DNA from: Hyphomicrobiales bacterium
GTDB taxonomy: Bacteria; Pseudomonadota; Alphaproteobacteria; Rhizobiales; Xanthobacteraceae
Reading direction: 5' to 3'
Assembly (NCBI GenBank): GCA_009377755.1
Contig: WHTM01000003.1
Location: forward strand, 1 to 64,000
DNA: 64,000 nt
Under the pieces are notes generated by a model that was given only the letters and a program-made list of their open reading frames with translations, was not told the DNA's origin and ran no database searches. Shown here in pieces: positions 42,502 to 61,657 of this stretch (position 1 is the first letter of the stretch; each line of letters starts with the position of its first letter). Made by a program: the position numbers and the translations under genes.

Positions 42502-43611
42502 ATGACTCACAATGGCGGCCTTGCGTTTCTTACCGCTGCGTGCGTGCTGATCGGGTCAAGCGCACAGGCAAAGGAGCTACGCTACAATCTGTTCGACGTG
42601 CCGCGCAGCGCCACCGCACAGGTGATCACCAAATTCTTCGATGACCTGAGGAAGGAGACCAACGGCGACCTGACCACCCGCATCTTTACGGGCGGGCAGT
42701 TGCTGAACGCTCCCGCGACGCTGAAAGGCGTCGGCGACCGCGTGGTCGACGGCGGGTTCGTCGTGCCGAGCCTCAACCAGGGCCAGCTCAAGCACACCAA
42801 CGTCATCCCCGACCTGTTGCCGTTCGTGACCGACTCGCTGGTCGCGGCGGCCGCCGGCGTCGATACGGCCGTGGTCGGCTGCGAAGGGTGCAAGGACGAG
42901 TTCAAGGCCGCCAAGGTGGTTTGGCTCGGCGGCTTCGGGCCCGACCCCTGGCATCTGATGTGCCGCGAGCCGATCACCAAGGCGGACGACCTGAAAGGCC
43001 GCAAAGTGCGCGTCACCGGCGCCTCGCCGACGCGGCTGATCCGGCAGCTCGGCGGTGTGCCGGTGCAACTGCCGCCGACCGAAATCGCCACCGCCTTCCA
43101 AGGCGGACAGATCGACTGCGCCTGCGGTCCGCTGGTGTGGCTAAGGGACTACGCGCTATGGGACGTCGCCAAGTCGGTGGTGGATGCGCCGTTCGGCGTC
43201 TACGGCGGGCTCGGCACGTTCACGTTCAACGCCGACACCTTCGCCTCCTTCACGGCGCCGCAGCGCGCCGCGATGCTGAAGCTGATGCCGGACTCGGTGA
43301 TCAACGGCACGCGCCTGCATCTGCGCTCGGGCGACGAGGCGCGCAAGGGAGCCGCGGCGAAGGGGATTAGTTTCTGGAAGCCGGACGACGAGTTCAAGAA
43401 GCGCGTGACGGAGTTCCGTAAGTCGGAGATCGGCAATTTGACCGCCGACATGAGCAAGCGCGGCGTTGCCAACGCCGAAGCGGTGATCAGGCTGCACCTC
43501 GCCAATATCGACAAGTGGGAAAAGAAGCTCGCCACGATCGGCAACGACCCCGGCCGCCTGATCGAGGAGCTGCGCAAGGAGGTGTATGCCAAGTCGCCGG
43601 TGGGGAAGTAG
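42502..43611 (+). CDS. TRAP transporter periplasmic receptor (DctP-like)
   Basis: 369 aa. Signal peptide MTHNGGLAFLTAACVLIGSSAQA, then LRYNLFDVPRSATAQVITKFFDDLRKETNGDL, and the ligand-binding stretch LKGRKVRVTGASPTRLIRQLGGVPVQLPPTEIATAFQGGQIDCACG. It includes the R-x-x-x-G pocket motif expected of DctP proteins that bind carboxylates. GAGG lies eight bases before ATG 42502. Together with DctQ and DctM it forms a complete TRAP system next to a MetE-like gene. Confidence 0.9.
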   Translation: MTHNGGLAFLTAACVLIGSSAQAKELRYNLFDVPRSATAQVITKFFDDLRKETNGDLTTRIFTGGQLLNAPATLKGVGDRVVDGGFVVPSLNQGQLKHTNVIPDLLPFVTDSLVAAAAGVDTAVVGCEGCKDEFKAAKVVWLGGFGPDPWHLMCREPITKADDLKGRKVRVTGASPTRLIRQLGGVPVQLPPTEIATAFQGGQIDCACGPLVWLRDYALWDVAKSVVDAPFGVYGGLGTFTFNADTFASFTAPQRAAMLKLMPDSVINGTRLHLRSGDEARKGAAAKGISFWKPDDEFKKRVTEFRKSEIGNLTADMSKRGVANAEAVIRLHLANIDKWEKKLATIGNDPGRLIEELRKEVYAKSPVGK

Positions 43612-43624
43612 CGCAGGCCAACCT

Positions 43625-43698
43625 GTGTCCCGGACGCGGTGCAGCATGTAATGCTGCACCGCTGATCCGGGACCCTTCTTCGACGTAACCGGGACACG
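43625..43698. repeat. CGTGTCCCGG palindrome, copy 3
   Basis: GTGTCCCGGACGCGGTGCAGC pairs with GCTGCACCGCTGATCCGGGAC (in pieces), then CCGGGACACG. It fills the gap between convergent genes. On the minus strand it begins four bases after the TAG of the 43703-44671 gene. Confidence 0.75.
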
Positions 43699-43702
43699 AG
43701 CG

Positions 43703-44671
43703 CTACATCAGCAGCACGATCTTGCCGAAGTGCGCGTTCGACCGCATGTGCGCGTGCGCGGCGTGCGCGTCGTCGAGCGGGAAGGTCCGGTCGATCGGCA
43801 GGCGCAGCGCGCCGGCATTGACCGCGTCCCAGATGTCGGCCTGCATGCGCCGCGAAATCTCGCGCACCTCCTCGACGGTGCGGGTGCGGAAGGTGACGCC
43901 GATATAGTCGATGCGCTTGAGCGCGTGCAGGTCGAAGTCGAACTCCGCCTTGGCGCCGCCGAGCCGCCCGACATTGACGATGCGGCCGAGCAGGTCGCAT
44001 GCCTGCATGTTGGCGTTGGCGAGGCTGCCCGAGACCATGTCGACGATCAGGTTGACTCCCGTGCCGCCGGCCGCGGCGCGTACCTGCTCGGGCCAGGTCG
44101 CGTCGCGCGTGTCGATGGCGAGATCGGCGCCGAATTCGGCGAGCCGGGCGCGGCGCCCCTCGTTGGTCGATGAGCCGATCACCAGGCGCGCGCCCTTGAG
44201 CCTGGCGATCTGCAAGCCCATCAGGCCGACGCCGGTGCTGGCGCCCTGGATCAGTACCGCCTCGCCGGATTGCAGCCGGCCGTTGGTGATCAGCGCATCG
44301 TGCATGGTCATCAGCGCGACCGGCAGCGCCGCCGCCTGCCCGAAGCTCATGCCGGCCGGCATCGGCAAGGTGCGGCCCCAATCGGACACCGCATACTCCG
44401 CATAGCCGCCGATGCCCGAGCCCATCACGGACTCCCCAGGACGCACGTGGGCCACATCGGGACCAACCTCGACGACCTCCCCAGACCACTCGAGACCAAT
44501 CGGAAGACCAGGGGTGCCGTGGCCCGGATGGAACGCGCCGCGCGCCGCGGAGAGGTCGGCGCGGTTGAGTCCGGCGGCCCGCACCCGCACCAGCACCTCG
44601 GTGGGTTTCGGCCGCGGCGGCGGCACGTCGCGGACGACAAGGCCCTGTTCGGAGGCAACGGCAGCTTTCAT
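43703..44671 (-). CDS. Zinc-independent quinone-oxidoreductase-like MDR protein
   Basis: 322-aa medium-chain reductase: GLNRADLSAARGAFHP at the N-terminus, GLEWSGEVVEVGPDVAHV, and the nucleotide motif VLIQGASTGVGLMGLQIARLKGARLV. It lacks the structural-zinc cysteines, so it belongs to the NADPH:quinone reductase-like group. It starts 5 bp after the stop of the extradiol dioxygenase gene and is co-transcribed with it, suggesting reduction of a ring-cleavage or quinone intermediate. Stop codon adjoins a palindromic repeat. Confidence 0.9.
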   Translation of the reverse strand: MKAAVASEQGLVVRDVPPPRPKPTEVLVRVRAAGLNRADLSAARGAFHPGHGTPGLPIGLEWSGEVVEVGPDVAHVRPGESVMGSGIGGYAEYAVSDWGRTLPMPAGMSFGQAAALPVALMTMHDALITNGRLQSGEAVLIQGASTGVGLMGLQIARLKGARLVIGSSTNEGRRARLAEFGADLAIDTRDATWPEQVRAAAGGTGVNLIVDMVSGSLANANMQACDLLGRIVNVGRLGGAKAEFDFDLHALKRIDYIGVTFRTRTVEEVREISRRMQADIWDAVNAGALRLPIDRTFPLDDAHAAHAHMRSNAHFGKIVLLM

Positions 44672-44676
44672 CGGGG

Positions 44677-45699
44677 TCAGCCGACCGCCGCCGCCTCGCT
44701 TCCGGCCTGCCTGAGGCTGTCCCACCACGGACAGACGCCGGGCGCGAGCTGATAGTTGCCTTCGATCACCTGCACCGGCTTGCGATATCCCTGTTGCGCC
44801 AAGCCCATGCGCAGTTTGCGGGCATTGTCCTGCGCCTCCTGCGGGAGCCAGGTGCGGTCGTGGCCCCACATGCTCGGGCCTTCCGGGCGTTCCTTGGCGG
44901 CCCAGGAGTCCGGGTCGATCGACCGCGCGCCCCAGCCGTACTCCACCATGAAGGCCGACGGCGTCCAGGTGTAGAACGAGGTCAGGTAGTCGCTGGTGTG
45001 CCGCCCGAGCGTGGTGGCGATACGGCCCTCCTCGGACTGGGCGATGTCGTAGCCCTGTCCCACATCGTCCAGATTGAACAGCTCCATCATCAGGTGATGC
45101 ACGGCGTTCTTGCCGGAACGCACGAAAGCAATACTGTGGTGACGTGGGTTGACGTGGAGGAAATACGCCTCGAACGGATGCGTGTAGTAGTCGCTAAGGT
45201 GGAAGCCGAGGACGTCCTGGTAGAACGCCATCATTTCCTCGACGCGCTCCACGTGCAGCACCACGTGGCCCAAGCCCAGCGGACCGGTGCGGAAGCCCGA
45301 GATCGAGCGGCCGGGGATGAACGGCTCTGTCGTCGTCTCGGCGCCGTGGAACACTTCGACGCGGTTACCGAGCGGATCGTTGAGCACGATCAGGTCCGTG
45401 ACGCGGCGCTCGTAGGCCAGCGCCCGCGAGCCGCGCGCGAACGTGATGCCACGGGCCTCGAGCTTCGCTGCGAGCGCATCGAGCGCGGCGGCATCCGCCA
45501 CCTCCCAGCCGAAATAGGAAATGCCTTCGCCTCCGTCCGCGTCGACGATCAGGCGCTGCTTGCGGTCGTCCATGCGGAACGCCAGCGTCGAGCGGCTCTT
45601 GTCGGTACGTTGCAGCCCGAGCAGGCCGGTTCCGTAGGAGGCCCAGTCGCCCAGGTCCTTGGCGCGAATTCCGAGATATCCCAATGCCTGCACGCCCAT
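44677..45699 (-). CDS. Type I (VOC-fold) extradiol dioxygenase
   Basis: 340 aa, two vicinal-oxygen-chelate domains as in BphC-type 2,3-dihydroxybiphenyl dioxygenases. The Fe(II) ligands fall in the C-terminal domain: His145 (GLGHVVLHV), His202 (AVHHLMMEL) and Glu253 (FMVEYGWG). It should cleave a catechol ring outside the hydroxyls. It is unrelated in fold to the LigAB-like enzyme at 10.1-11.2 kb, so the window encodes two different extradiol cleavage systems. GAGG precedes ATG 45699. Operon with the reductase gene downstream. Confidence 0.92.
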   Translation of the reverse strand: MGVQALGYLGIRAKDLGDWASYGTGLLGLQRTDKSRSTLAFRMDDRKQRLIVDADGGEGISYFGWEVADAAALDALAAKLEARGITFARGSRALAYERRVTDLIVLNDPLGNRVEVFHGAETTTEPFIPGRSISGFRTGPLGLGHVVLHVERVEEMMAFYQDVLGFHLSDYYTHPFEAYFLHVNPRHHSIAFVRSGKNAVHHLMMELFNLDDVGQGYDIAQSEEGRIATTLGRHTSDYLTSFYTWTPSAFMVEYGWGARSIDPDSWAAKERPEGPSMWGHDRTWLPQEAQDNARKLRMGLAQQGYRKPVQVIEGNYQLAPGVCPWWDSLRQAGSEAAAVG

Positions 45700-45830
45700 G
45701 GTGCACCTCTTGCTCTGCCGCCGCGACAGCCACGGTAGGACGAAGCTACCGGAAGCCCGGACGTCCGAATGACCCTTCACATATAGGGCGATCCGCGACG
45801 CCAGTCGATCTCTCCACTGTCGTGTATGGA

Positions 45831-45973
45831 CGGCCCCGGGCCTTGAGCCGGGGAGAGCTGGGACCCAGGCAACACCGGCGACCGTTGTTCTGCTGTGGGC
45901 ACGCCTCGTTTCGAGCAGCGAGTGCAGGGGTGCATGGGTCCCGGCGCTCGTGCTACGCACTCGGCCGGGATGA
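45831..45973. repeat. Dispersed palindrome (CCGGGATGAC type), copy 2
   Basis: A compound repeat ending CGGCCGGGATGAC, related to 9941-10068 (GGGACCCAGGC opposite GCATGGGTCCCGG; CTCGTTTCGAGCAGCGAG as an inner hairpin). It occupies most of the 299-bp divergent gap between the dioxygenase gene and the fourth MetE-like gene. Confidence 0.6.
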
Positions 45974-45998
45974 CAGCCGAGTTTTTTCAAGGACGACC

Positions 45999-47120
45999 AT
46001 GCCCGAGCGCACCATACCGCCCTTTCACGCCGACCACGTCGGCAGCCTGATCCGCCCTGACGCGCTGGTCGCGGCGCGCGCGGCGGCCGAGCGCAAGGAG
46101 ATTGGCGAATCCGAACTGCGGCGCATCCAGCAGGACGCCATCCGCGACGTGGTTCGGATGCAGGAATCGCTCGGATTGAAGCTCGCCACCGACGGCGAAT
46201 ACAACCGCGGCGGCTGGCAGCGGGATTTCCTGCTGCGCTTCGCCAACGTGGCCATGATGCCGTCGAAGCTAACGGTCAAGTTCCATTCGCAGGCCGGTAC
46301 GCGCGAGCACAGCCCGCCGTCGATGCAGGTGGTTGGCAAGCTTGCGCGGCCCAAGCCGATCTTCGTCGACGATTTCAAGTTCCTGGTGTCGGTCGCCCAG
46401 GCGACGCCGAAGATCACAATCCCGTCGCCGACCATCCTGCATTTCCGCGGTGGCCGCGAGGCGATCGACGCCAAGGCCTACCCCGACATGGGTGCGTTCT
46501 ACGACGATCTCGCCCGCGTCTATCGCGAGGAGATCGCCGACCTCGCGGCGGCAGGCTGCCGCTACCTGCAGATTGATGAGGTCAATCTCGCCTATCTGTG
46601 CGACCCCGAGCTGCGCCGGCAGGTCTCGAATATCGGCGAGGATCCGGAATCGCTACCGCGGACCTATGCCAAGCTGCTCAACGACACCATATCCGGCTGC
46701 CCCGACGGCATGACCGTGTGCATGCATCTCTGCCGCGGCAATTTCGCCGGCGCCTGGGTGGCGGAAGGCGGCTACGACGCGATCGCCGACCTGCTGTTCA
46801 ATGCGATCGACGTCGACGGGTATTTCCTGGAATACGACAGCGTGCGCGCCGGCGGCTTCGAGCCGCTGCGGTTCCTGCCGAAGGGCAAGACCGCCGTGCT
46901 CGGACTGGTCACCACCAAGAGCGACGCGCTGGAACGCAAGGACGAAATTAAGCGCCGCATCGAGGAGGCGAGCCGCTATGCGCCGATCGAACAGCTTGCG
47001 CTGAGCCCGCAATGCGGTTTCGAGAGCGGCATCGGCGGCAAGGCGATGACGCTCGAACGCGAGATCGACAAGCTGCGGCTGGTGGTCGAGACGGCGCGGG
47101 AGGTGTGGGGATCGCCATGA
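45999..47120 (+). CDS. Core MetE-like zinc methyltransferase homologue (paralogue 4)
   Basis: 373 aa. It opens with FHADHVGSLIRPDALVAARAAAE; the zinc site is His243 and Cys245 (CMHLCRGNFAG), Glu278 (LEYDSVRAG) and Cys339 (SPQCGFESG). Same subgroup as the 39251 paralogue, sharing ITIPSPT and LPKGKTAVLGLVTTKSD. AAGGA lies upstream of the ATG at 45999. It is divergent from a ring-cleaving dioxygenase. Its recurrence beside aromatic genes suggests a role in handling methyl groups from methoxylated or methylated substrates; inference only. Confidence 0.88.
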   Translation: MPERTIPPFHADHVGSLIRPDALVAARAAAERKEIGESELRRIQQDAIRDVVRMQESLGLKLATDGEYNRGGWQRDFLLRFANVAMMPSKLTVKFHSQAGTREHSPPSMQVVGKLARPKPIFVDDFKFLVSVAQATPKITIPSPTILHFRGGREAIDAKAYPDMGAFYDDLARVYREEIADLAAAGCRYLQIDEVNLAYLCDPELRRQVSNIGEDPESLPRTYAKLLNDTISGCPDGMTVCMHLCRGNFAGAWVAEGGYDAIADLLFNAIDVDGYFLEYDSVRAGGFEPLRFLPKGKTAVLGLVTTKSDALERKDEIKRRIEEASRYAPIEQLALSPQCGFESGIGGKAMTLEREIDKLRLVVETAREVWGSP

Positions 47121-47198: not shown

Positions 47199-47330
47199 TT
47201 GCGGTCCGGGGGGCCAAGGCGTGACATTGCCGAGACTCGTTACGCGAGAAGTGGCGATATTCGGATCGCGTATCAGGTCCTGGGACATGGCCCGATGGAC
47301 CTGGTCTTCGTTCCGGGCTTCATCCCGATT
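47199..47330 (+). pseudogene. N-terminal remnant of an alpha/beta hydrolase (cyclase-fused type)
   Basis: One frame reads [29 protein letters not shown], the first strands of the alpha/beta hydrolase domain found in proteins that also carry an adenylate-cyclase domain (the family's usual start is close to T-RYA-SGD-IAYQV). Nothing of the nucleophile elbow or cyclase domain follows, and the frame becomes unrelated after about 47330. The 418-bp gap 47121-47538 holds only this relic. Confidence 0.55.
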
Positions 47331-47538
47331 CGGGACGGCGCTCGGCAAGATCGATGCGCGTCAGACATGGGAACTCGAACCGCATGTCGTCTCCGGTTCG
47401 TCTCAATGGGAGGTTACGGGTCCTCTGACCGGCAGGCGCGACGAGGGCCGCGAGCCGGTGGTCAGCCGACATGAAAGCGGGGTATGGGTAGGCTGAGCGC
47501 GGGAGGCGTGAGGATCGGCGTGATGCCGAGGCGGTAGC

Positions 47539-48759: not shown

Positions 48760-50913
48760 ATGACTGCGACACGTCAACTGTATGCCGGCGTTGCGGCGAT
48801 TGCCGTTGCGCTATGTCTGCCCGGCGCTCCGGCGCCGGTCCTGGCGCAACAAAGCGGCGCGGCCGCGGTGCAGATCGACGGCAACGACATCGGCGGCGTC
48901 GTGCGCGGACCGAACGGGCCGGAGGCCGGCGTCTGGGTGATCGCAGAGACCACCGATCTTCCGACGCGCTACATCAAGAGCGTCGTCACCGACGACCAGG
49001 GCCGTTACGTCATCCCCGATCTGCCAACGGCAAACTATCAGGTCTGGGTGCGCGGCTACGGGCTTGTCGATTCGCCCAGGATGCGCGCGACGCCGGGCAA
49101 GACCATCAATCACACCGCGGTACCGGCGCCGAACGAGGCGGCGGCGGCGCATTACTATCCGGCGATCTACTGGTACACGATGATGAAGCTCCCGCCGGAG
49201 AAGGACTTCGGCGGCTCGACCGACATCCCGAAGAACATCACGCGCGACATCTGGCGCCAGCGCATGAGCAATGTCGACTGCGTCGGCTGCCATCAACTCG
49301 GCCAGGCATCGACACGGACGATCCCGGCGCAACTGGGCGAGTTCAAGTCGGGCGAGGAGGCGTGGATCCGCCGCGTCGCCTCCGGGCAATGGGGCGAGGC
49401 GATGACGAATCGACTCGCCGGCCAGCTCGGCGGCGTGCCGTACAAGTATTTCGGCGATTGGACCGACCGCGTCGCCAAGGGCGAGTTGCCGAAGCACAAG
49501 CCGCCGCGCCCGCAGGGCATCGAGCGCAATATCGTCGTCACCGCGTGGGAATGGTCCACGCCGGACAAGTATCTCCACGACCTGATCTCGTCGGATCGGC
49601 GCAACCCTACGGTCAATGCCTACGGCCCGCTCTACGGCGCGCCGGAGTATTCGACCGACAACATGCCGATCCTCGACCCGAAGACGCACACGGTGTCGCA
49701 CTTCAAGATGCCGGTGGCCGATCCCAACATGCCGCTGTCGCTTGGGCCCGGCCACGCCGCCACGGTCAAGCCGACCGCACCGTCGCCCTACTGGGGTGAC
49801 GTGCAGCTCTGGGACACCAGGGCCAACCAGCACAACGCCATGTTCGACAAGAAGGGCCGGGTGTGGCTCGCGGCGTCCGTGCGGGGTCGCCCGAATCCGG
49901 CGTTCTGCAAGAAGGGCTCGGACCATCCCTCGGCCAAGGTGTTCCCGCTCGACATGAGCAGCCGGCAGGTCGCAGTGTTCGATCCGAAGACCCAGAAGTA
50001 CGACTTCGTCGACACCTGCTTTGGCACCCATCACCCGCAGTTCGGCTACGACGCCGACGATACGCTGTGGCTCTCCGGCACCGGCCAGGTCGCCGGCTGG
50101 GTCAACACGAAGGTATGGGACGAAACCCATGATGCGCAGAAGGCGCAGGGCTGGGCGCCGTTTGTGCTCGACAGTAACGGCAACGACAAGCTCGATGAGT
50201 TCGCCCAGCCGGGCAAGCCGGAGGCGGGCAAGGACATGCGCTTCAACCCGGGTTCCGGCCCGTACGCGGTGATGCCGCATCCGACCGACGGCTCGATCTG
50301 GTACACCTCCGGCGTGTTTGGGGGCAGGCCGGGTTTCCTGCGCTTCGACCCGAAGACGAAGCTCAGCGAATTCTACGCCGTGCCGAAGGAAGCCATCGGC
50401 CTGCGTGGCGGCGATATCGGCAAGGACGGCGTGGTCTATGGCTCCGGTTCGGCCGGCCACCTGATCGCCTTCGATCGGCGCAAGTGCAAGGCTCCGCTCA
50501 GCGGGCCGAACGCGACCGGCAACCACTGTCCGGAGGGCTTCACGCTCCACAAGTATCCGGGGCCCGGCTTTGAGGGCACCGGCAATAGCAGCGCCGAGGC
50601 GAGCTACTACACCTGGGTCGACCATCACAACACGGTGGGGCTCGGCGAGAACGTTCCGATCTCGACCGCCAACCTCCAGGACGGCTTCGTCGGCTTTAAG
50701 GACGGGCAGATGATCCTGATGCGTGTGCCGTACCCGATGGGCTTCTACGCCAAGGGTCTCGACGGGCGCATCGACGATCCGAACGCCGGCTGGAAGGGCC
50801 GCGGCCTGTGGAGCGCCAGCGGCGACCGCACACCCTGGCTCAACGAGTTCGGCAAGGGTGCGCGCCCGCTGGCCGTGCACATCCAGGTGCGGCCGGATCC
50901 GCTGGCGAGGTAA
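48760..50913 (+). CDS. Secreted one-heme beta-propeller protein with N-terminal regulatory-like domain
   Basis: 717 aa. Signal peptide MTATRQLYAGVAAIAVALCL...VLAQ; a carboxypeptidase-regulatory-like (Ig/transthyretin-type) domain at about 42-118 (GVVRGPNGPEAGVWVIAETTDL...YVIPDLPTANYQVWVRGYG); one c-type heme site CVGCH (Cys174, Cys177, His178); then a region of about 450 aa with repeated propeller-like blades (AVFDPKTQKYDFVDT, LWLSGTGQVAGW, SIWYTSGVFGGRPGFLRFDPKTKLSEFY) as in Vgb lyases or quinoproteins. Probably a periplasmic redox enzyme; substrate unknown. GGGAGGAGG precedes the ATG. It leads an operon with two membrane proteins and a small relative of its own N-terminal domain. Confidence 0.85.
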   Translation: MTATRQLYAGVAAIAVALCLPGAPAPVLAQQSGAAAVQIDGNDIGGVVRGPNGPEAGVWVIAETTDLPTRYIKSVVTDDQGRYVIPDLPTANYQVWVRGYGLVDSPRMRATPGKTINHTAVPAPNEAAAAHYYPAIYWYTMMKLPPEKDFGGSTDIPKNITRDIWRQRMSNVDCVGCHQLGQASTRTIPAQLGEFKSGEEAWIRRVASGQWGEAMTNRLAGQLGGVPYKYFGDWTDRVAKGELPKHKPPRPQGIERNIVVTAWEWSTPDKYLHDLISSDRRNPTVNAYGPLYGAPEYSTDNMPILDPKTHTVSHFKMPVADPNMPLSLGPGHAATVKPTAPSPYWGDVQLWDTRANQHNAMFDKKGRVWLAASVRGRPNPAFCKKGSDHPSAKVFPLDMSSRQVAVFDPKTQKYDFVDTCFGTHHPQFGYDADDTLWLSGTGQVAGWVNTKVWDETHDAQKAQGWAPFVLDSNGNDKLDEFAQPGKPEAGKDMRFNPGSGPYAVMPHPTDGSIWYTSGVFGGRPGFLRFDPKTKLSEFYAVPKEAIGLRGGDIGKDGVVYGSGSAGHLIAFDRRKCKAPLSGPNATGNHCPEGFTLHKYPGPGFEGTGNSSAEASYYTWVDHHNTVGLGENVPISTANLQDGFVGFKDGQMILMRVPYPMGFYAKGLDGRIDDPNAGWKGRGLWSASGDRTPWLNEFGKGARPLAVHIQVRPDPLAR

Positions 50914-50942
50914 GCGGATCGGCCGCAACCGACTTGCGAAAA

Positions 50943-50962
50943 GGGGCGGCGCACGCCGCCCC
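50943..50962. terminator. GC-rich hairpin after the beta-propeller gene
   Basis: GGGGCGGCG and CGCCGCCCC form a strong stem with a very short loop 29 bp after the stop codon. There is no T-tract; it may attenuate transcription into the membrane-protein genes. Confidence 0.45.
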
Positions 50963-51057
50963 CGCATCATGCGAAGACACAGTGGTGCCAGCCAAAAGAC
51001 GCGAAGTGACAGATCGCGCCTGAGCCAACCTTGCCACGGCTTGACCGGGAGAAGCCG

Positions 51058-51565
51058 ATGGACTTCCTATTCGATTACATGTCGGTCAACACGTTCTGGA
51101 CCATCCTATTCATCATTCATGCTTTGCTCGCGGTCGCGCTGCTGGGCGCCCTCACGCATCAAGCGCTGTCCGTCCTGATGCCGGTGCGGCAGGTGGCAGG
51201 CGCCGGCGGCTTTGTGACGTGCTTCCGCGCGGTGCAGGGCGCCGGCTATGCCCACGGCGGTCTGCGTGCTGTGGATCGCGACCCTCATTTTCGGCGCCTG
51301 GATTTACACCAAGTATCGCGTCTACGTTCGGATTCCGATTGAGCAGGAGGGATACTTCAAGACGCTTGGCGTCTTCGAACTGAAGGAGCACCTCGCCACC
51401 ATCGGCGTCGGTCTGCTGCCGATCTACTGGTACTTCTGGAAGAGCGTGAAAGATCCGGAACACGACAGTTCGCGCAAGTGGGTGACGGTGACGCTGGCTG
51501 CGATGTGCTGGTACATGTTCCTGGTTGGCCATATCCTCAACAATGTCCGGGGATTCGGATCATGA
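51058..51565 (+). pseudogene. Four-helix membrane protein with histidines, 1-bp frameshift
   Basis: The first frame reads MDFLFDYMSVNTFWTILFII...RAVQGAGYA, and a second frame continues TAVCVLWIATLIFGAWIYTK...GHILNNVRGFGS. An extra C in the CCC run at 51251-51253 separates them; deleting one C gives 168 aa with four membrane helices. His21, His111 and His158 lie in or beside helices 1, 3 and 4, a pattern that could hold heme b. GGAG precedes ATG 51058. The TGA overlaps the next gene's ATG. With the heme-c protein upstream, a quinone- or cytochrome-b-type electron partner is a reasonable guess. The insertion may be a sequencing error. Confidence 0.7.
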
Positions 51566-51942
51566 GCACGGCTGCAGAAGCATCTTCGACCGCCACGGTG
51601 TCGTCCCTTGCATCCTCGGCAGCGTTTCGGACCTTTGCGGTCGTGTTCGCCGTCGCGACGCCGGTAATCTACGTCATCTGTGAAATGCAGAACTGGCCCT
51701 TGTTCACCTATCATCCGGCGACCGACCGGATCGATCTCGGCTTTGCGGCGGCGCGCAGGGACGAGGGGCCGGCCATGTATTGGTACGGGTGGACGGCAAA
51801 CACGCTCATCGGTGCGGGCATCCTGGGGCTGCTCGCCACGATGCTGCCGGAAAGCATGGTCAGAAAAATTCCGCTGTCACTGGTGTGGATCATGCCGCTC
51901 GCCGCCGTGCCGATCCTGATCTATGCGCTACGTTTTTTCTGA
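51562..51942 (+). CDS. Small membrane protein of the beta-propeller operon, unknown
   Basis: 126 aa with three predicted membrane segments: FRTFAVVFAVATPVIYVICEM, WTANTLIGAGILGLLATML and LVWIMPLAAVPILIYALRFF. A 40-residue loop between the first two carries PLFTYHPATDRIDLGF. I do not recognise the family. Its ATG overlaps the stop of the frameshifted membrane-protein gene, so the two are meant to be made together. Probably a subunit of the same membrane complex. Confidence 0.75.
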   Translation: MSTAAEASSTATVSSLASSAAFRTFAVVFAVATPVIYVICEMQNWPLFTYHPATDRIDLGFAAARRDEGPAMYWYGWTANTLIGAGILGLLATMLPESMVRKIPLSLVWIMPLAAVPILIYALRFF

Positions 51943-51985
51943 TGGTGATAGCGGCGTTTATGCGTCCTGTGAAGCGGAGGCAGAC

Positions 51986-52372
51986 ATGGCAGTCTTGATC
52001 CGGACTTTTGCGATCGTGGCCGGCCTGACGCTTTCGGTTGCATCCGGAGGGCCGGCTCTTGCCGGCGGGGATGACTACGACGCCATGGCCGACAAGGAGG
52101 GCTAGGGCCCGGCTTATTTCGGCTTCGTGCGCGACATGCGCGGCTCGGCGGTCTCAAACGCGCGCGTCGTCCTTCGCCCGAAGGTGGGCGAGCCCGTGAT
52201 TCTCAAGTCCAACGCGATCGGCCTCTATCGCAGCCACATCAGCAAGGACGTGCGTCCCGACGAGCTCGAAGTCTCCTGCGAGAAGGACGGCTACAAACAG
52301 GCGCGCATCGTGCGCCGCTCGACCCAGGGCGCGGCCAACGTCGAGACGAACTGCATGATGCAACGGCTGTAG
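51986..52372 (+). pseudogene. Small exported regulatory-domain protein interrupted by in-frame TAG
   Basis: ATG 51986 (GGAGG upstream) begins MAVLIRTFAIVAGLTLSVASGGPALAG, a signal peptide, and continues DDYDAMADKEG to TAG at 52103-52105. The same frame carries on to 52372 as GPAYFGFVRDMRGSAVSNARVVLRPKVGEPVILKSNAIGLY..., a carboxypeptidase-regulatory-like domain similar in kind to residues 42-118 of the 48760-50913 protein. One C-to-T change (CAG to TAG) would explain it. Without the stop the protein is 128 aa. Recent nonsense mutation, sequencing error or amber read-through. Confidence 0.7.
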
Positions 52373-52381
52373 TGGTGATCC

Positions 52382-54070
52382 GTGCGCCGGCGCCGCGCGT
52401 GGATCATCGGTCTGCTGACTGCGCTCGCCGCTGTGCCGGTGGCACGTGTGCAGGCGCAGGCGCCTGGCACCATCCTCATCAACGGCAAGATCGTGCGCTA
52501 CGACGCACCGCCCGCAGAGGTGCTGGCGGTGCGCGATGGAAAAATCTCCGCCATCGGACGCACGCACGACGTCCGTGCCCTGTCCGGCAGCGGCACGCGC
52601 GTCATCGATTTAGCCGGCCGGACCGTGATCCCAGGGCTGATCGATTCGCATATCCATGCCATCCGCGCCGGCCTGACGTTCACAACCGAGGTACACTGGA
52701 TCGGCGTCCGTTCGCTTGCCGAGGCGCTTGACCGCATCCGTGCCAAGGCCGAGGTCGCGCCGAGGGGTTCGTGGCTCGTGGTCGCCGGCGGCTGGACCGA
52801 ACGGCAATTCGCCGAGGGTCGCCGGCCGACCCAGGCCGAGATCGCAGCCGTGGCGCCCGATCATCATGTCTACGTGCAGATCTTGTACAGCCGGGTGCTG
52901 CTCAGCTCCGGAGCCTTTGAAGCGCTCGGGATTGTGCGACATGAAGAGCTCGCCGCAAGCCTGACGATCGAGCGCGACAGCGAAAACCGTCCGACCGGCT
53001 GGGTCACCGGCGATGCCCGCACCATCAGCAACCTGTTCAACCTGCTCCCGCCGCCGACGTTCGCGCAAAAGGTCAAGGGCACGCGCGCCTTCTTCCGCGT
53101 CCTCAACAGCGTCGGCCTCACCGGCGTCATCGATCCCGGCGGCTACAATCTCTCGATCCCGGATTACCAGCCGCTGTTTCGGGTCTGGCGCGACCGCGCG
53201 CTGACACTGCGCGTCCGCTACAGCCTGTGCGCCCCGCGGCGCGGGCATGAGCTGGAGGACCTTCAGGCGCTCACGCAGGTCTTACCCATGGGCTTCGGCG
53301 ACGAGTGGCTGCGCTTCAACGGCATCGGCGAGAACGTCACTTGGGGCATGTACAACAACGAAACGCCGTCGGAGGCGCAGAAGGAGGCGCTGTATCAGGC
53401 GCTGCGCTGGGCGGCTGCGCGCGGCCTGACCGCGACCTTTCACTGGATCAACAACCGCTCGGTCCATCACCTGCTCGGCGTGCTGGAGCGCGTCCATGCC
53501 GAGACGCCGATCGCGCACTTACGCTGGTCGATCGCGCACCTCCACGATGCCACGCTGGAGAGCCTCAAGCGCATGAAGGCCATGGGCGTCGGCTGGCTGA
53601 CGCAGAATTCGTTCTACTTCCGCGGCGAGGCATTCCTCGGCCAGCGCGGGCTGGAGGCGGCGCGGATATCGCCGCCGATCGTGAGCGCGCTGCGCATGGG
53701 TCTGGCCGTCGGCGGCGGCACCGATGCGCACCGGGTGATGTGGTACAACCCGTTCGTGTCGCTGCAATGGATGGTGGACGGCAAGACCATCAGTGGCGTC
53801 TCCACGCGTGCGGCGGAGGAATTGCCGACCCGCATGCAGGCTCTGCGGCTCTATACGCAAGGCAGCGCCTGGTTCGTCGTCGAAGAGGACCAGCGAGGGT
53901 TGCTTGGCGTCGGCAAGCTCGCCGATCTCGTGGTCTTGAGCAAGGATTACCTCACGGTCCCGGTTGACGAAATCGGAACGACCGTCTCGCTGCTCACCAT
54001 GGTGGGGGGCCACATTGTCTATGCGGCTGGACCCTATGCGGCGCTGGAGGATAGGCTGCTGGCGCGTTGA
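52382..54070 (+). CDS. Exported amidohydrolase (YtcJ-like)
   Basis: 562 aa. A GTG start leads into an arginine-rich signal peptide (RRRRAWIIGLLTALAAVPVARVQAQ), so the enzyme is probably periplasmic. The amidohydrolase frame includes ILINGKIVRYD, VIDLAGRTVIPGLIDSHIHAIRAG (metal HxH), RWSIAHLHDATLESLKRMKAMGVG and GLAVGGGTDAHRV, then the C-terminal GKLADLVVLSKDYL. YtcJ-type proteins hydrolyse amides or related bonds; substrate unknown. It begins 10 bp after the small regulatory-domain gene and belongs to the beta-propeller operon. Confidence 0.88.
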   Translation: MRRRRAWIIGLLTALAAVPVARVQAQAPGTILINGKIVRYDAPPAEVLAVRDGKISAIGRTHDVRALSGSGTRVIDLAGRTVIPGLIDSHIHAIRAGLTFTTEVHWIGVRSLAEALDRIRAKAEVAPRGSWLVVAGGWTERQFAEGRRPTQAEIAAVAPDHHVYVQILYSRVLLSSGAFEALGIVRHEELAASLTIERDSENRPTGWVTGDARTISNLFNLLPPPTFAQKVKGTRAFFRVLNSVGLTGVIDPGGYNLSIPDYQPLFRVWRDRALTLRVRYSLCAPRRGHELEDLQALTQVLPMGFGDEWLRFNGIGENVTWGMYNNETPSEAQKEALYQALRWAAARGLTATFHWINNRSVHHLLGVLERVHAETPIAHLRWSIAHLHDATLESLKRMKAMGVGWLTQNSFYFRGEAFLGQRGLEAARISPPIVSALRMGLAVGGGTDAHRVMWYNPFVSLQWMVDGKTISGVSTRAAEELPTRMQALRLYTQGSAWFVVEEDQRGLLGVGKLADLVVLSKDYLTVPVDEIGTTVSLLTMVGGHIVYAAGPYAALEDRLLAR

Positions 54071-54089
54071 TCGACCGAGGAGCGTCTCA

Positions 54090-55343
54090 ATGAATCGTCC
54101 CCTACAGCCTATCCTGGACAAACGCGGTGAGCCGCACGTGCGCCGCTTCAGCGAGCAGCGCTGGCTGCTCGACAACACCATCCGCGCCAACGGCATCGAC
54201 TGGGATCAGCCGCGCTCGCTGTATCTGAGCGGCCCATGCGGCATGGAGTCGAACGCGGACTTCGCCGGCATCCGCACGCGGGTGCAGAAGATGGCCGACA
54301 TCGGCCCGGCCTTCGAGGCGGTCGCGCGCCGGCGCGAAGCCAAGGCGAAAGCCGCCGAAGAGGCCGGCAGCACCGTCACGGCGCGCGACAACTACTTCAT
54401 GGCGGCGATCCACTGGGGCGCCGCGCAATGGCCCTACGACCAGAACGACGAAACCAACATCGCCTACAACAACAAGAAGCGCGAGTGCTACATGAAGTAC
54501 GCGGCGCTTGCCGACCATCATGTCGAGGCGGCTTGGATTCCGTTCAAGGACAAGGCGATCGCGGCATGGCTCCATCTGCCGCCCGGCTATACCGGCGGCC
54601 GTATTCCGGTGGTGATCGCGATTCCCGGAATGGACAGCTTCAAAGAAGGGCAAGTTGCGCTTTACGGCGACCGCTTTCTCAACCGCGGCATGGCGGTGCT
54701 GGCGATCGACGGCCCCGGCCAATACGAAGCACCGATGCTCGGGGTCTACTTCTCGATGGAGAGCTGGGTCGCCGCCGGTAAGCCGATCGTCGATTGGCTG
54801 GTTGCGCGTGCCGAGATCGACCCGGAGCGCATCGGATGCTCCGGCACGAGCTTCGGCACCTTTTTCGGCACCATCCTTACGGCGCACGAGCCGCGCATCC
54901 GCGCGTTCGCTGCCATGTCGGTGTGCCACGAGCCGGGATGCCACACCATCTTCCAGGAGGCCTCGCCGACCTTCAAGAAGCGCTTTATGTACATGTCGGG
55001 CATCGTCGACGAGGACGCGTTCGACAAATTCCGCAAGGGCATGACCTGGGAGGGCCATGCCGACCGGATCGGCGTGCCGTATTTGTGCGTCGCCGGCGAA
55101 GCAGAGGAACTGAGCCCGGTGGAGCATTCCGAGCGGCTGCTGCGCGCCGTCAAGGGGCCGAAGCGGCTGGTCATCTATCAGGACTCGCGCCACTCGGTCG
55201 GCAACGTCCCGGCCGCCAATCTCGGTCCGTTTCCGCCGATACTGGTGGCCGACTGGATGGCCGACCGCCTCGCCAGGAAGCCGTTCGCCAGCGAGCGCTG
55301 GTACGTCACCGCGAGCGGCCAGATCGAGAAGACGCCGCTGTGA
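54090..55343 (+). CDS. FrsA/DHPON-hydrolase-like alpha/beta hydrolase
   Basis: 417 aa. A helical N-terminal cap of about 170 residues precedes the hydrolase core with IPVVIAIPGMDSFKEG, the nucleophile elbow IGCSGTSFGTFFG, an acid in VAGEAEELSP and the histidine in YQDSRHSVGN. This layout is that of 2,6-dihydroxypseudooxynicotine hydrolase and FrsA-like C-C bond hydrolases. GGAG lies seven bases before ATG 54090. It follows the exported amidohydrolase by 20 bp, closing the operon; a C-C or ester hydrolysis step in the same pathway is likely. Confidence 0.87.
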   Translation: MNRPLQPILDKRGEPHVRRFSEQRWLLDNTIRANGIDWDQPRSLYLSGPCGMESNADFAGIRTRVQKMADIGPAFEAVARRREAKAKAAEEAGSTVTARDNYFMAAIHWGAAQWPYDQNDETNIAYNNKKRECYMKYAALADHHVEAAWIPFKDKAIAAWLHLPPGYTGGRIPVVIAIPGMDSFKEGQVALYGDRFLNRGMAVLAIDGPGQYEAPMLGVYFSMESWVAAGKPIVDWLVARAEIDPERIGCSGTSFGTFFGTILTAHEPRIRAFAAMSVCHEPGCHTIFQEASPTFKKRFMYMSGIVDEDAFDKFRKGMTWEGHADRIGVPYLCVAGEAEELSPVEHSERLLRAVKGPKRLVIYQDSRHSVGNVPAANLGPFPPILVADWMADRLARKPFASERWYVTASGQIEKTPL

Positions 55344-55477: not shown

Positions 55478-56305
55478 CTACGACTGCCCACCGCTGCAGT
55501 TGATCACCTGCCCGGTGATGAAGCTCGCATCGTCGGATGCAAGGAACACGATCGCGGCGGCCTGCTCCTCGGGCAGGCCACGCCGCCGCAGCGCCTGCTG
55601 ATTGCTGATGTCCTCGGCCATTTCCCGGCGATAAACCTCCGCCAAGGGGACGTCGTCCGCCATCCGGCCTGGCCCGATCGACAGGCGCGGCGTGACGCGA
55701 TCGGAAATCTCGGTGCCACCCGGCGCCATCGTGTTGACGCGGATGCCGTAGCGTCCGTACTCCATCGCCAGCACCTTGGTGAGCGCCAGGACGCCGCCCT
55801 TGCTGGTCGCGTACGGGAGGCGATAGAGCCCGCGCGTCGACTGCGAGCCAACGTTGACGATCGAGCCGGCCTTCTGTTCCATCATGATCGGCAGCGCCGC
55901 CAGGCAGCACCACAGCGTCGGATAGAGCGAGCGCTCCAGCTCGAGCTTCACCTCCTCCTCGCTGTAGAGGTGGTACGGCTTGATCCAGATGGTGCCGCCG
56001 ACATTGTTCACCAGCACGTCGATCCGGCCATAGGCCTCGCGCGCTTGGGCCATCAGCGATTGCGCGCTGGCGAAAGTGCCGAGATCAACCAGCACCTTCA
56101 TCGCCTCGACGCCGTGCTGGCGCAGCTCGGCTACCGCCTCGGTCGCCGTAGCCTCGACGCGATCGGCGACGACGATGGTGCCGCCTTCCTGGCCGAGCCG
56201 TCGCGCCGCGGCGCGTCCGATGCCTTGGCCGGCGCCAGTGATGACGCACACCTTGTCCGTCAGCCGGCGGGCGCCGGCCGCGCGGGCATCCAGCTCGTCA
56301 GTCAC
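55478..56305 (-). CDS. Short-chain dehydrogenase/reductase
   Basis: 275 aa classical SDR: CVITGAGQGIGRAAARRLG, VLVNNVGGTIW, catalytic VNVGSQSTRG...LPYATSKGG and the C-terminal GQVINCSGGQS. A GTG at 56305 with GGAG six bases upstream is preferred over an ATG at 56323 that lies inside a palindromic repeat. Diol dehydrogenases that re-aromatise Rieske dioxygenase products belong to this family, and a Rieske oxygenase gene lies immediately upstream on the same strand, so that role fits. Confidence 0.88.
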   Translation of the reverse strand: MTDELDARAAGARRLTDKVCVITGAGQGIGRAAARRLGQEGGTIVVADRVEATATEAVAELRQHGVEAMKVLVDLGTFASAQSLMAQAREAYGRIDVLVNNVGGTIWIKPYHLYSEEEVKLELERSLYPTLWCCLAALPIMMEQKAGSIVNVGSQSTRGLYRLPYATSKGGVLALTKVLAMEYGRYGIRVNTMAPGGTEISDRVTPRLSIGPGRMADDVPLAEVYRREMAEDISNQQALRRRGLPEEQAAAIVFLASDDASFITGQVINCSGGQS

Positions 56306-56318
56306 TACCCTCTCCGTT

Positions 56319-56410
56319 GTCATGCGCGGGCTTGTCCCGCGCATCCCGCTTAGGGTCGCACGGCATTGCCATCCTAAGCGAGATGGCCGGGAGAAGCCCG
56401 GCCATGACGG
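56319..56410. repeat. Dispersed palindrome (GTCATGCGCGGG / CCGGCCATGAC type)
   Basis: Several nested hairpins: GCGCGGGCTTGTCCCGCGC, CCGCTTAGG opposite CCTAAGCG, and GGCCGGGAGAAGCCCGGCC, closed by GTCATG/CATGAC. It lies between the Rieske oxygenase and SDR genes; related to 15961-16086. Confidence 0.65.
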
Positions 56411-56419
56411 AGAAAAAAA

Positions 56420-57700
56420 TCAGATCGAGGTATGCGGCACGCCCTCACGCACAGTGAGGTCCTCGTGCTTCGCCTGCTCGAACGGCACATCGACCGGCAA
56501 CACGAACGTCGCGGATCGAACACGGTGGCCCTCCTGGGTGAGGCCGGGCGGCGCGACGCCCTTCTGCAGCGCGAGCGCGGCGCGGCTCAGGCGATGCCGC
56601 GCCATGATGATCGCGTTGTCGGTCGACACCAGGTTTTCCTTGGTGCGGTCGGCGACCGGCCCCATGCTCTCCTGCACGGATGCATCCTGCATGGCGATGC
56701 CCTTGACACCGCTGTAAGTACGACCGGCCTTCTGTGCCGCGCGGTCGATCATGTAGTCGTTGTCCATGTTGATCACCGGGCGGAATGTGCCCGGACTCAG
56801 CTCGACATGGATGCCGCCGCCCTTGCGCATGGTGTCGAGTTCCATCTCGCTCAGCGGCCGGGTCGGATGATAGGTGAAGGTCCACGTATAGCAGTTCTCG
56901 TCGTCGATCGGCACCCAGGCATGCGCATTGAGCGCGTTGTCGCCGTAGGGCGGCACCATCGTGTACCAGGGCATGATCCACTGGGTGATGCGCCAGTAGT
57001 AATGCCCCTCCTCGGCGTTGCGGCGCGCGCCGATGTAGAGCCCGCCGGACGACTCCACGATCTCGAACTTCGGCTTGCGGTCGCGCTGGTACTGGGCGCC
57101 CTTGGTGCCCTTGTGCAGCGGGTCGGTATGCAGCTCGCCGCTGTGCAGGAACGAGACGTGGCTGGAGTCGATCCCCCCTTCCATCGCCTGCAGGTAATTG
57201 CATTGCTGCCGCCGCTTCGAGTGGTGGCAATGCGACGCCGGCAGCGCCGCCCATTCGAACGCCGGCTCCGGCGGCTGCAGTTCGGCCGGGCCCATGTACG
57301 TCCAGAGGATGCCGCCGCGCTCGATCAGCGGATAGGATTTGAGCTTGATCTTGCCGCAGAAGCCGCTTTCCGCCGGCTCTGACGGCACCTCGATGCACTG
57401 GCCGGTGTGGTCGTACTTCCAGCCGTGATAGGGGCAGCGCAACCCGTTCTCCTCGTTGCGGCCGAACCACAGCGATACGCCGCGATGGGCGCAGAACTCA
57501 TCGGTCAGTGCATAGCGGCCTTGCGTGTCGCGCCAGGCCAGTACGCGCTCGGACAGCAGCTTGACGCGCACCGGCGGACATTCGTTCTTCGGCACTTCGG
57601 AAGCAAGCAAGGCCGGAATCCAGTAACGGCGGAACAGATCCCCCACCGGGGTCCCCGGCCGGGTGCGGGTCACGAATTCGTTTTGTTCTTGCCTCAACAT
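56420..57700 (-). CDS. Rieske non-heme iron oxygenase, alpha subunit
   Basis: 426 aa. The Rieske 2Fe-2S motif is CAHRG...CPYHGW (Cys70, His72, Cys89, His92). The mononuclear iron site lies in MEGGIDSSHVSFLHSG (Asp178 region, His181, His186). The C-terminal part matches phthalate-/vanillate-demethylase-type oxygenases (the single-subunit group). It hydroxylates or O-demethylates an aromatic acid, needing a separate reductase that is not seen nearby. ATG 57700 has AAGGA upstream. The AT-rich stretch at about 57740-57752 may hold its promoter. It may be co-transcribed with the SDR gene despite the repeat between. Confidence 0.92.
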   Translation of the reverse strand: MLRQEQNEFVTRTRPGTPVGDLFRRYWIPALLASEVPKNECPPVRVKLLSERVLAWRDTQGRYALTDEFCAHRGVSLWFGRNEENGLRCPYHGWKYDHTGQCIEVPSEPAESGFCGKIKLKSYPLIERGGILWTYMGPAELQPPEPAFEWAALPASHCHHSKRRQQCNYLQAMEGGIDSSHVSFLHSGELHTDPLHKGTKGAQYQRDRKPKFEIVESSGGLYIGARRNAEEGHYYWRITQWIMPWYTMVPPYGDNALNAHAWVPIDDENCYTWTFTYHPTRPLSEMELDTMRKGGGIHVELSPGTFRPVINMDNDYMIDRAAQKAGRTYSGVKGIAMQDASVQESMGPVADRTKENLVSTDNAIIMARHRLSRAALALQKGVAPPGLTQEGHRVRSATFVLPVDVPFEQAKHEDLTVREGVPHTSI

Positions 57701-57822
57701 GGCGTCGGTTCCTTGCAACACTCAAGCCAGGGGCGTCTACCATAAAATAGCGCTTGCAGCGTGCGCAACCAGTCAACTGGCGAAATGCAATCAGAGGGCG
57801 GCTCCAAAAAATCTTAGGAGCT

Positions 57823-57876: not shown

Positions 57877-58399
57877 ATGACTGCCACCGCCAAAGCTGCT
57901 GCCCCGACATCGGATCGCGATCTCGTGCTGACCCGCATCATCGATGCGCCGTGCGAAAAGGTGTTCAGAGCATGGACCGCCCCCGAACTGCTCAAGCAGT
58001 GGTTCGCGCCACGCCCCTACACCACGCCGGTCGCGGAGCTCGACCTCCGGCTCGGCGGCGCCAATCGGATCGTCATGCGCAGTCCTGATGGGCGGCGCCA
58101 ATCGGATCGTCATGCGCAGTCCTGATGGCAACGATATTCCCTGCGGCGGCGTTTATCTCGAAATCGTCAAGAACGAGCGGCTGGTGTTCACCGACGCCTA
58201 CACCAAGGCGTGGGAGCCTTCCGAAAAGCCGTTCATGACGGTGATCCTGACCTTCGAGGACCGAGGCGGCAAGACCCAGTACACCGCCCGCGTGCGTCAC
58301 TGGACGGTCGCCGACCGCGAGACCCACGAAAAGATGGGCTTCCATGAAGGTTGGGGCCAGTGCGCCGACCAGCTTGCGGAGGTGGTGGCGACGCTCTGA
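57877..58399 (+). pseudogene. SRPBCC/AHSA1-family protein broken by a 37-bp tandem duplication
   Basis: ATG 57877 (GAGGAG upstream) starts MTATAKAAAPTSDRDLVLTR IIDAPCEKVFRAWTAPELLKQW (split here), the usual opening of AHSA1-type START-like proteins. An exact 37-bp duplication (58054-58090, 58091-58127) then shifts the frame to a stop at 58125. The second frame resumes NRIVMRSPDGNDIPCGGVYLEIV and runs to 58399 (...WGQCADQLAEVVATL). With one copy removed the protein is 161 aa, normal for the family. Such proteins bind hydrophobic ligands and often sit beside VOC/PhnB genes, as here. Confidence 0.88.
58054..58127. repeat. Exact 37-bp tandem duplication in the SRPBCC gene
   Basis: Two identical 37-bp units beginning GGCGGCGCCAATCGGATCG, head to tail, causing the frameshift described for the surrounding gene. 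Confidence 0.95.
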
Positions 58400-59665: not shown

Positions 59666-61657
59666 CCGGCTAGCTTGCGCCGCACGCGCAGCACGCTTCC
59701 CCAGGGCATGACGCCGATGACGGCGAGCGCGATGCCGATCAGCGGCGGATAGATTCCTGGCCCGATCAGCAGCAATCCGCCCGCTCCGGCGGCAATGCGC
59801 TGCAGCGAGCCGAGGGGCGTCAGGGCATATCCGCGGATGCCGCAAGCGATCAGAATCGCACCGACCAACGCGGTGCCGATCGCCCAGGCGACCTGTGCGG
59901 CGGAGCCTTGCAGCAGCAGGCCGGGGCTGAGAACGAAGGCGAACGGGATGATGAAGGCGGCGATGCCGAGCTTCACCGCTTCCCAGCCGGTCTCCCAAAG
60001 CTTGCTGCCGGAAATCGACATGGCAACGAACACCGCGATGCAGAGCGGCGGCGTGAAGAACGACGCCAGGCCCCAATAGACGACAAACAGGTGCGCCGCC
60101 ATCTCGGACACGCCGAGCTGGATCAGCGCCGGTGCCATCAGAGTCGCCAGCGTGACGTAGACCGGGATCGAATCCAGCCCCATGCCGAGCACGAAGCTCG
60201 CGAGCCCGACCAGGACCAGCGTCATGATCAGATTGCCGCCCGACAGATCGAGGATGAAGGTCGAAATCTTGATACCGACGCCGCTCAGTTCCACCGCGCC
60301 GATCATGATGCCGACGAATCCGGTGATCGCCGCGACGGCCGCTCAGTTCCACCGCGCCGATCATGATGCCGACGAATCCGGTGATCGCCGCGACGGTGAT
60401 CCAGCTGCGGACGGCACGGTCGCAGGCGAGGGCGAAATTGCTCGGCATCAGCCAGTCGCTGCGGTCACGCGACAGGAAGCTCGCGCCGATCGCGAACGGC
60501 AGCGTGAGCACGCCGGCCATCCCCGGCGGGTAGGCCTTGACGATCAGGAAGTAGATCAGCGCCGCGATCGGGATAAAATAGAACCAGCCCTCGCGGAATA
60601 CCGGCCCGAGCTTCGGCAGCTCCGATCGCGCGAGCGGCTCGACGCCGTCGCGGTGCGCCTGCAGGTGAACCGAGACGAACACGATCAGGAAATACAGCGC
60701 CGCCGGGATGAACGCTGCGACGGCAATCTGCGCGTAAGGGACCTGGATCCATTCGGCCATGACGAAGGCGATCGCGCCCATCACCGGCGGCAAAATCTGG
60801 CCGCCGGTGGAAGCGACCGCCTCGACAGCGCCGGCGAAGGCCGGGCGATAGCCGATCTGCTTCATCAGCGGAATCGTGAATACGCCGGAGGTCGCGACGT
60901 TGGCTGACGGCGAGCCCGAGATCGAACCAAACATGGCGCTCGACACGACCGCCGCCTTGGCCGGGCCGCCGCGCGACCAGCCGGTCAGCGCCAGTGCGAT
61001 TCGGATGAACCACTTGCCCGCGCCGCTCGCCTCCATCACTGCGCCGAACAGCACGAAGATGATGACGATGTTGGTCGCGACATTGAGTGGCAGGCCGAAG
61101 ATGCCGGACTCGCCGACATAGGCGGCATAGAGCAACCGGTCGGGCTCGTAACCGCGGCCATAGAGAACGCCCGGCAGCACGTTCTGAAACACCGTTCCCA
61201 GGACAAGGGCCGTCACCAGGATCGGCAGGGTGATCCCGGTCGTGCGCCGAACGGCCTCGATCAGCGGCAGGCAGATCAACAGAGCGAGCACCAGCCCCCG
61301 CGTGTCGAGAAAGCCGAACATACTGTAGTCGAGCACGTTCTGGTGAAATACGACGACATAGCCAAGGCTGATCCAGGTGCACGCGATGAGCGCTCCGTCG
61401 AAGATCGTGGGGCGCCGGAAGGATCTATTGAGATCGCGAGAGACCCCATGCGTGCCGTAGGCCGGCACCAGGACGAAGATCACAGTGAGGGCGCAGGCCA
61501 GACTGATCGCGCCATGCACCTGTTCGGGCATGAAGAAGCCCGCCATGGCGGCGAGATTGCCGACGATGATGATGTGATAGATGATGATGGCAGCGGCGGT
61601 CCAGCCGAATACCGATGCTCGCCGCGCGGGCCGATCCGTCGTCGCCGCCATGGTCAT
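59662..61657 (-). pseudogene. TAXI-type TRAP fused permease broken by a 58-bp tandem duplication
   Basis: A fused small-plus-large TRAP permease (4TM/12TM type). The N-terminal frame from ATG 61657 covers VFGWTAAAIIIYHIIIVGNLAAM, GFLDTRGLVLALLICLPLIEA, SGSPSANVATSGVFTIPLMK and ASTGGQILPPVMGAIAFVMAE. At FVGIMIGAVELSG an exact 58-bp duplication (60281-60338, 60339-60396) shifts the frame; the remaining helices (VGIKISTFILDLSGG...LVGLASFVLGMGLDSIPVYV) read correctly from 60306 to 59662. Removing one copy gives 645 aa, normal for the family. It follows its receptor gene (61827-62825) on the same strand. Confidence 0.9.
60281..60396. repeat. Exact 58-bp tandem duplication in the TRAP permease gene
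   Basis: Two identical 58-bp units beginning CCGCTCAGTTCCACCGCGCC, head to tail. 58 is not a multiple of three, so the permease frame is broken. Confidence 0.95.

Follow-up and report, generated by a model that had tools for sequence, protein, structure and literature searches.

A conserved gene set around a putative heme c propeller protein of the streptogramin lyase type in Hyphomicrobiales

Introduction

Quinohemoprotein dehydrogenases, for example polyvinyl alcohol dehydrogenase, combine an eight-bladed PQQ propeller with heme c. For the propeller fold of the streptogramin lyase type we know of no redox chemistry. That fold, with seven blades, is typified by streptogramin (virginiamycin) B lyase, Vgb (PDB 2qc5 and 2z2n; Pfam PF24684). 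Thiocyanate dehydrogenase carries out a periplasmic oxidation and its electrons pass to the single-heme cytochrome c552, which is a separate protein (PMC9456337).

Here we analyse DNA of a Hyphomicrobiales bacterium (GCA_009377755.1, contig WHTM01000003.1, positions 1–64,000, forward strand; this whole stretch of 64,000 nucleotides is referred to as the window) in which a propeller of this type accompanies a candidate heme c site. A preliminary description of the sequence had proposed a periplasmic redox module of six adjoining genes. The set of genes around the propeller protein, PROP, is real and conserved; its parts in the window, with the labels used below, are as follows.

48760..50913, + strand: PROP, 717 aa, a single uninterrupted frame
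51058..51565, + strand: TM1, four-helix membrane protein gene, frameshifted (frame 1, 51058 to ~51255; frame 2, ~51236 to 51565)
51562..51942, + strand: TM2, 126 aa, three hydrophobic helices, open frame
51986..52372, + strand: sCPD, small exported CpD-like protein gene, with an in-frame TAG at 52103–52105
52382..54070, + strand: AMID, 562 aa exported amidohydrolase (PF07969, E 3.6e-78)
54084..55343, + strand: alpha/beta (C-C-hydrolase-like) hydrolase, outside the conserved set, best solved relative 2jbw (E 1.3e-10)

Results

PROP comprises a signal-like N-terminus, a CpD-like domain (residues ~44–117), the motif CVGCH (174–178) and a seven-bladed propeller of the streptogramin lyase type (~252–711). 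Residues 44–117 match PF13620 (carboxypeptidase-regulatory-like) with an E-value of 3.1e-6 and 27.9 bits, below the Pfam gathering cutoff of 32.3, and beyond this no named family in Pfam or NCBIfam was matched; NCBIfam likewise gave zero matches for PROP, the TM1 pieces, TM2 and the part of sCPD after its TAG. Pfam and NCBIfam revealed no signature of an oxygenase or reductase in PROP, and no PQQ family match was found in these databases or among the fold matches listed by Foldseek and VIA-align. CVGCH is the sole heme site of the protein, and the CXXCH motif does not vary among 39 close relatives and 15 of the broader family. Heme proteins of the c type are recognised by a CXXCH motif in an exported protein, a combination present in PROP, which is predicted from its sequence to carry one covalent heme c. 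No second propeller protein of the PROP family was found in the source genome, and a search of open-licence PMC papers returned no relevant paper on the gene set.

The AlphaFold2 model of PROP, built with 40 sequences, has a pLDDT of 91.6 and a pTM of 0.92. Virginiamycin B lyase was the top Foldseek match to this model (E 3.6e-9), and VIA-align placed four Vgb entries at Z 23.2–23.4 (rmsd 2.5–2.6, 286–291 residues aligned), followed by the best non-Vgb fold at Z 19.9, with other propellers at 19.9 or less. At the level of sequence, a search with PROP alone against solved structures returned nothing significant, a PROP profile matched 2qc5 with E 1.6e-6, and PF24684 gave no match in PROP itself at E 0.1. 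The structure prediction that the preliminary description had called for thus confirms a propeller and assigns it to the Vgb type; the secreted protein proposed there, with a regulatory-like domain, a single CVGCH and a propeller-like region, is borne out by both sequence and model.

Residues R250, H273-D274, Y502, R549, D572 and Y616, together with the heme cysteines and histidine, are largely retained in the close family of PROP and in the broader family described below, and the close family additionally conserves H358, H424-H425 and four cysteines. Judged by the strand order of the model, several conserved residues begin inner strands on different blades and would therefore probably surround the propeller axis. 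By model strand order alone, the conserved histidines H273, H358 and H425 fall on the first three blades; the catalytic H228 and H270 of Staphylococcus aureus Vgb are on the last two, a comparison with PROP made by strand order only.

The broader family consists of proteins of ~520–620 aa with the same three parts: a CpD-like domain, CXXCH and a Vgb-type propeller. Here the matches to PF24684 are clear, up to E 6.7e-26 (L118 and L149 are among the matching members), and PF13620 scores 51.6 and 60.0 bits, above the gathering cutoff of 32.3. Profiles of the broader and close families match each other over most of their length (E 3.9e-26), and one relative, G021, has ~25 matches to the broader family. 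A monoheme cytochrome c gene lies directly upstream of three broader-family members, which supports a role in electron transfer.

At the broader-family loci L118 and L137–L156 (genomes G021, G004 and G031), several members adjoin monoheme cytochrome c genes, and one member adjoins an exported amidohydrolase gene. Another recurrent neighbour of heme-propeller genes encodes an exported protein of ~280–310 aa that carries a 'DFSG-W' motif in its N-terminal part; Pfam gave no match for the two examined (L144, L079). Its genes are at the following positions.

L138:7420-8253, 'DFSG-W' protein gene
L144:8015-8860, 'DFSG-W' protein gene
L155:7746-8591, 'DFSG-W' protein gene
L079:16838-17764, 'DFSG-W' protein gene

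TM1 of the window measures 508 bases, no multiple of three, and is matched by two profile hits in different frames, with the change between ~51236 and 51255. The gene is intact in relatives, and no second copy was found in the source genome. TM2, by comparison with most relatives, lacks the final three residues; its reading frame is open and its start overlaps the TM1 stop by ATGA, as reported in the preliminary description of a three-helix partner. The HP of a YHP motif in TM2 is invariant, and the motif probably lies in a periplasmic loop.

When TM1 of an intact relative was modelled, a four-helix bundle resulted (pLDDT 83). H22 and H159 are invariant in 18 of 18 sequences, which is compatible with heme b and no proof of it; H35 and H112 are nearly invariant, one intact TM1 lacking H112 and another H35. 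Loop charges suggest an N-out topology, which would put H22, H112 and H159 towards the periplasm; histidines and topology together would suit a heme b close to that side of the membrane. TM1 has no Pfam match. Foldseek gave STEAP1 and cytochrome b561 among the first matches to the model, at E 0.24 or worse, and the VIA-align Z-scores against b cytochromes are typical of any helical bundle. The idea of a four-helix protein with histidines placed to hold heme b gains from the invariant histidines of the relatives, but the copy in the window that had inspired it is frameshifted.

The small exported protein said to repeat the regulatory-like domain is encoded by a real gene, sCPD, intact in relatives but interrupted in the window by its TAG codon; it matches PF13620 at 20.6 bits (gathering cutoff 32.3).

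A search through the genomes of 84,980 species located 62 PROP loci; they lie in Bradyrhizobium, Xanthobacteraceae, other Hyphomicrobiales, Betaproteobacteria, Deltaproteobacteria and Rokubacteria MAGs. PROP or the gene set also occurs in records titled as Klebsiella pneumoniae and Bordetella parapertussis MAGs (L076, L093), titles that look wrong because the close relatives belong to other groups. A copy on a Microvirga plasmid, found in a plasmid collection, stands alone among uninformative neighbours.

Linkage was counted at 55 distinct PROP loci, those flanked on both sides by 3 kb or more of sequence. The TM1-TM2 pair is present at 13 of these; sCPD accompanies the pair at all 13 and is found at none of the 42 loci without it, and AMID is present at 9 of the 13 and again at none of the 42. 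The preliminary description had named two findings that would speak against a module. In the neighbourhood comparison, homologues of PROP, both membrane genes and sCPD stay together, contrary to the one; and no match of PROP to a characterised enzyme with known partners, the other, was found. The two hydrolytic enzymes included in the original proposal fare differently. The exported amidohydrolase is there as a PF07969 gene but belongs to only part of the cassettes. The C-C-hydrolase-like gene at 54084–55343, whose solved relative 2jbw is 2,6-dihydroxy-pseudo-oxynicotine hydrolase, is also present, but it does not recur at PROP loci and was therefore rejected as a partner and dropped from the set.

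Among 101 genomes related to the source, PROP is encoded in 13 and TM1 and TM2 in 11. All 11 TM1 genomes fall within the 13 with PROP (hypergeometric probability 4.9e-13, a value that ignores kinship and includes the source among the 11). Elsewhere TM1 is rare: in a phylum sample (n=398) it was found only in the window, and in an order sample (n=297) the one further copy was truncated and lay in G671, which encodes no PROP. A class sample (n=385) added TM1 in three more genomes, which belong to two other families; the cassette is not adjoined by a propeller gene in any of these, yet each encodes PROP elsewhere. Intact TM1 thus goes with PROP, PROP needs no TM1, and, since PROP often occurs without the cassette, the membrane pair is not obligatory. 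Loci L161, L162 and L163 have TM1-TM2 with no propeller gene adjoining, and two of them include sCPD; genomes G1004 and G931, in which they lie, encode several PROP proteins elsewhere.

The arrangement varies between loci. A second PROP copy, absent in the window, stands between PROP and TM1 at L048, L049, L065, L075 and L089; an NMT1-like substrate-binding protein gene can replace AMID after the cassette (L032, L034, L080); and in G004 and G021 TM1-TM2-sCPD are followed by a broader-family member in place of close PROP. Mapped onto a tree of 59 PROP proteins, cassette presence requires a minimum of seven changes, compared with 15.8 for shuffled labels, which argues for repeated gain or loss and not a single shared event.

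Aromatic-degradation genes flank the set at 43200–47120 and 55478–57721, encoding an extradiol dioxygenase, a BenD-like dehydrogenase, a LigXa-like Rieske oxygenase and a MetE-like protein. Short frames at 47199–47496 resemble the beginning of an alpha/beta hydrolase before they break off, possibly a remnant. Neighbourhoods in Bradyrhizobium gave no substrate hint, as the neighbours vary between strains, and PROP neighbours generally are catabolic but varied (luciferase-like monooxygenase, class II aldolase, FAA hydrolase), with no convergence on one substrate. The window also contains three short tandem duplications.

33232-33289: 29 bases, 100% alike
58054-58128: 37 bases, 100% alike, shifting the frame of an AHSA1/SRPBCC-like gene
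60276-60396: 58 bases, 98% alike, shifting the frame of a TRAP-permease-like gene

Along with the frameshift in TM1, these duplications suggest assembly error or recent slippage.

Discussion

The reading we favour, and hold at about even confidence, is that PROP is a periplasmic heme c redox enzyme built on a streptogramin lyase propeller; a dedicated membrane pair resembling a cytochrome b would serve it as an optional electron partner. Exported PROP would hold one covalent heme c beside its seven-bladed propeller, and a pocket at the propeller axis would take in its substrate, a small organic compound. The heme c would hand electrons to a periplasmic cytochrome or, in genomes with the cassette, to the small membrane pair TM1-TM2, which probably holds a heme b towards the periplasm and would deliver them to the quinone pool. 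sCPD, repeating the CpD-like domain, may dock PROP to TM1-TM2, and AMID would hydrolyse a related compound outside the cytoplasm. For the module as a whole we infer the redox role, heme b, catalysis, direction of electron flow, docking and substrate class. The invariant CXXCH, along with the cytochrome c genes that precede three broader-family members, supports the redox reading of PROP.

Four observations weigh against this reading: many PROP proteins have no cassette, the fold of TM1 matches b cytochromes no better than it matches helical bundles in general, the neighbouring genes do not converge on one substrate, and two cassette genes are interrupted in the window. The first two would also suit a lyase or binding protein in which the heme has a structural or redox-sensing role and TM1-TM2-sCPD, instead of carrying electrons, anchor, assemble or protect PROP. 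The nearest fold to PROP is indeed a non-redox lyase, and H112 and H35 are each absent from one intact TM1; but the invariance of H22 and H159 in all 18 TM1 sequences and the cytochrome c genes directly preceding three broader-family members make this explanation, in our view, rather unlikely. With the components unchanged, a candidate b-type membrane protein opposite a heme c protein, electrons could also flow in reverse: TM1-TM2 would take them from quinol, and PROP would use them in a reductive or oxygen-dependent periplasmic reaction. The oxygenase genes of the window (Rieske protein, extradiol dioxygenase) would suit such a scheme. In Pfam and NCBIfam PROP has no oxygenase or reductase signature, however, and wherever the cassette is missing another donor would be needed, so that we regard reverse flow as improbable.

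A further explanation concerns the source strain and is compatible with the outward electron flow favoured here: its cassette could be a decaying remnant, with TM1 and sCPD as true pseudogenes and PROP acting by itself. The frameshift in the one, the nonsense codon in the other and the lack of a second TM1 in the genome all point this way, and the closest PROP on the tree (L099) is without the cassette, which fits loss. The TM1 pieces, however, have pN/pS values of 0.17–0.35, similar to PROP and to comparisons of intact copies, so the lesions in TM1 and sCPD are recent or artefacts and any decay must be recent; the tandem duplications breaking other frames of the window leave room for assembly error. 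True decay is a real possibility that we place a little short of even. In either case the membrane part in this strain is recently broken or misassembled. With TM1 and sCPD interrupted, the electron chain drawn in the preliminary description may fail here and PROP may work alone, as it must in Bradyrhizobium.

We tentatively suggest that these proteins represent a new class of periplasmic oxidoreductase, in which a Vgb-type propeller has been turned into a heme c enzyme, with many paralogues in some genomes, and is served by a purpose-built TM1-TM2 cytochrome b and a docking sCPD that belong to no described family. If so, a fold not previously known to us in redox chemistry would join the periplasmic respiratory enzymes. 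Together with its membrane cassette the heme-propeller protein is found in many bacteria of soils and lakes. The family is spread widely, its broader branch occupying ~25 places in one genome, with no function named, and the two conserved membrane families, nearly confined to genomes with PROP, offer a concrete handle on function.

Of the described systems, the small membrane cytochromes b (cytochrome b561, STEAP1) share with TM1 a helical bundle and histidines near the membrane faces; there is no sequence similarity, and the Z-scores are no better than for designed helical bundles. The module can be likened to thiocyanate dehydrogenase by its proposed electron route, from a periplasmic oxidation to a single heme c (PMC9456337). 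With the quinohemoprotein dehydrogenases, PROP has in common an exported propeller, one heme c, as predicted from its motif, and a likely periplasmic oxidation, but it has seven blades and no PQQ family match in Pfam or NCBIfam. Vgb has the same seven-bladed propeller as PROP (best VIA-align Z 23.4, rmsd 2.5, 291 residues), and the sequence-profile match between them is weak but real. PROP differs from Vgb in its added CpD-like domain, its heme c site and its long insertions, and its surroundings are catabolic, with no antibiotic resistance genes adjoining, unlike those of Vgb.
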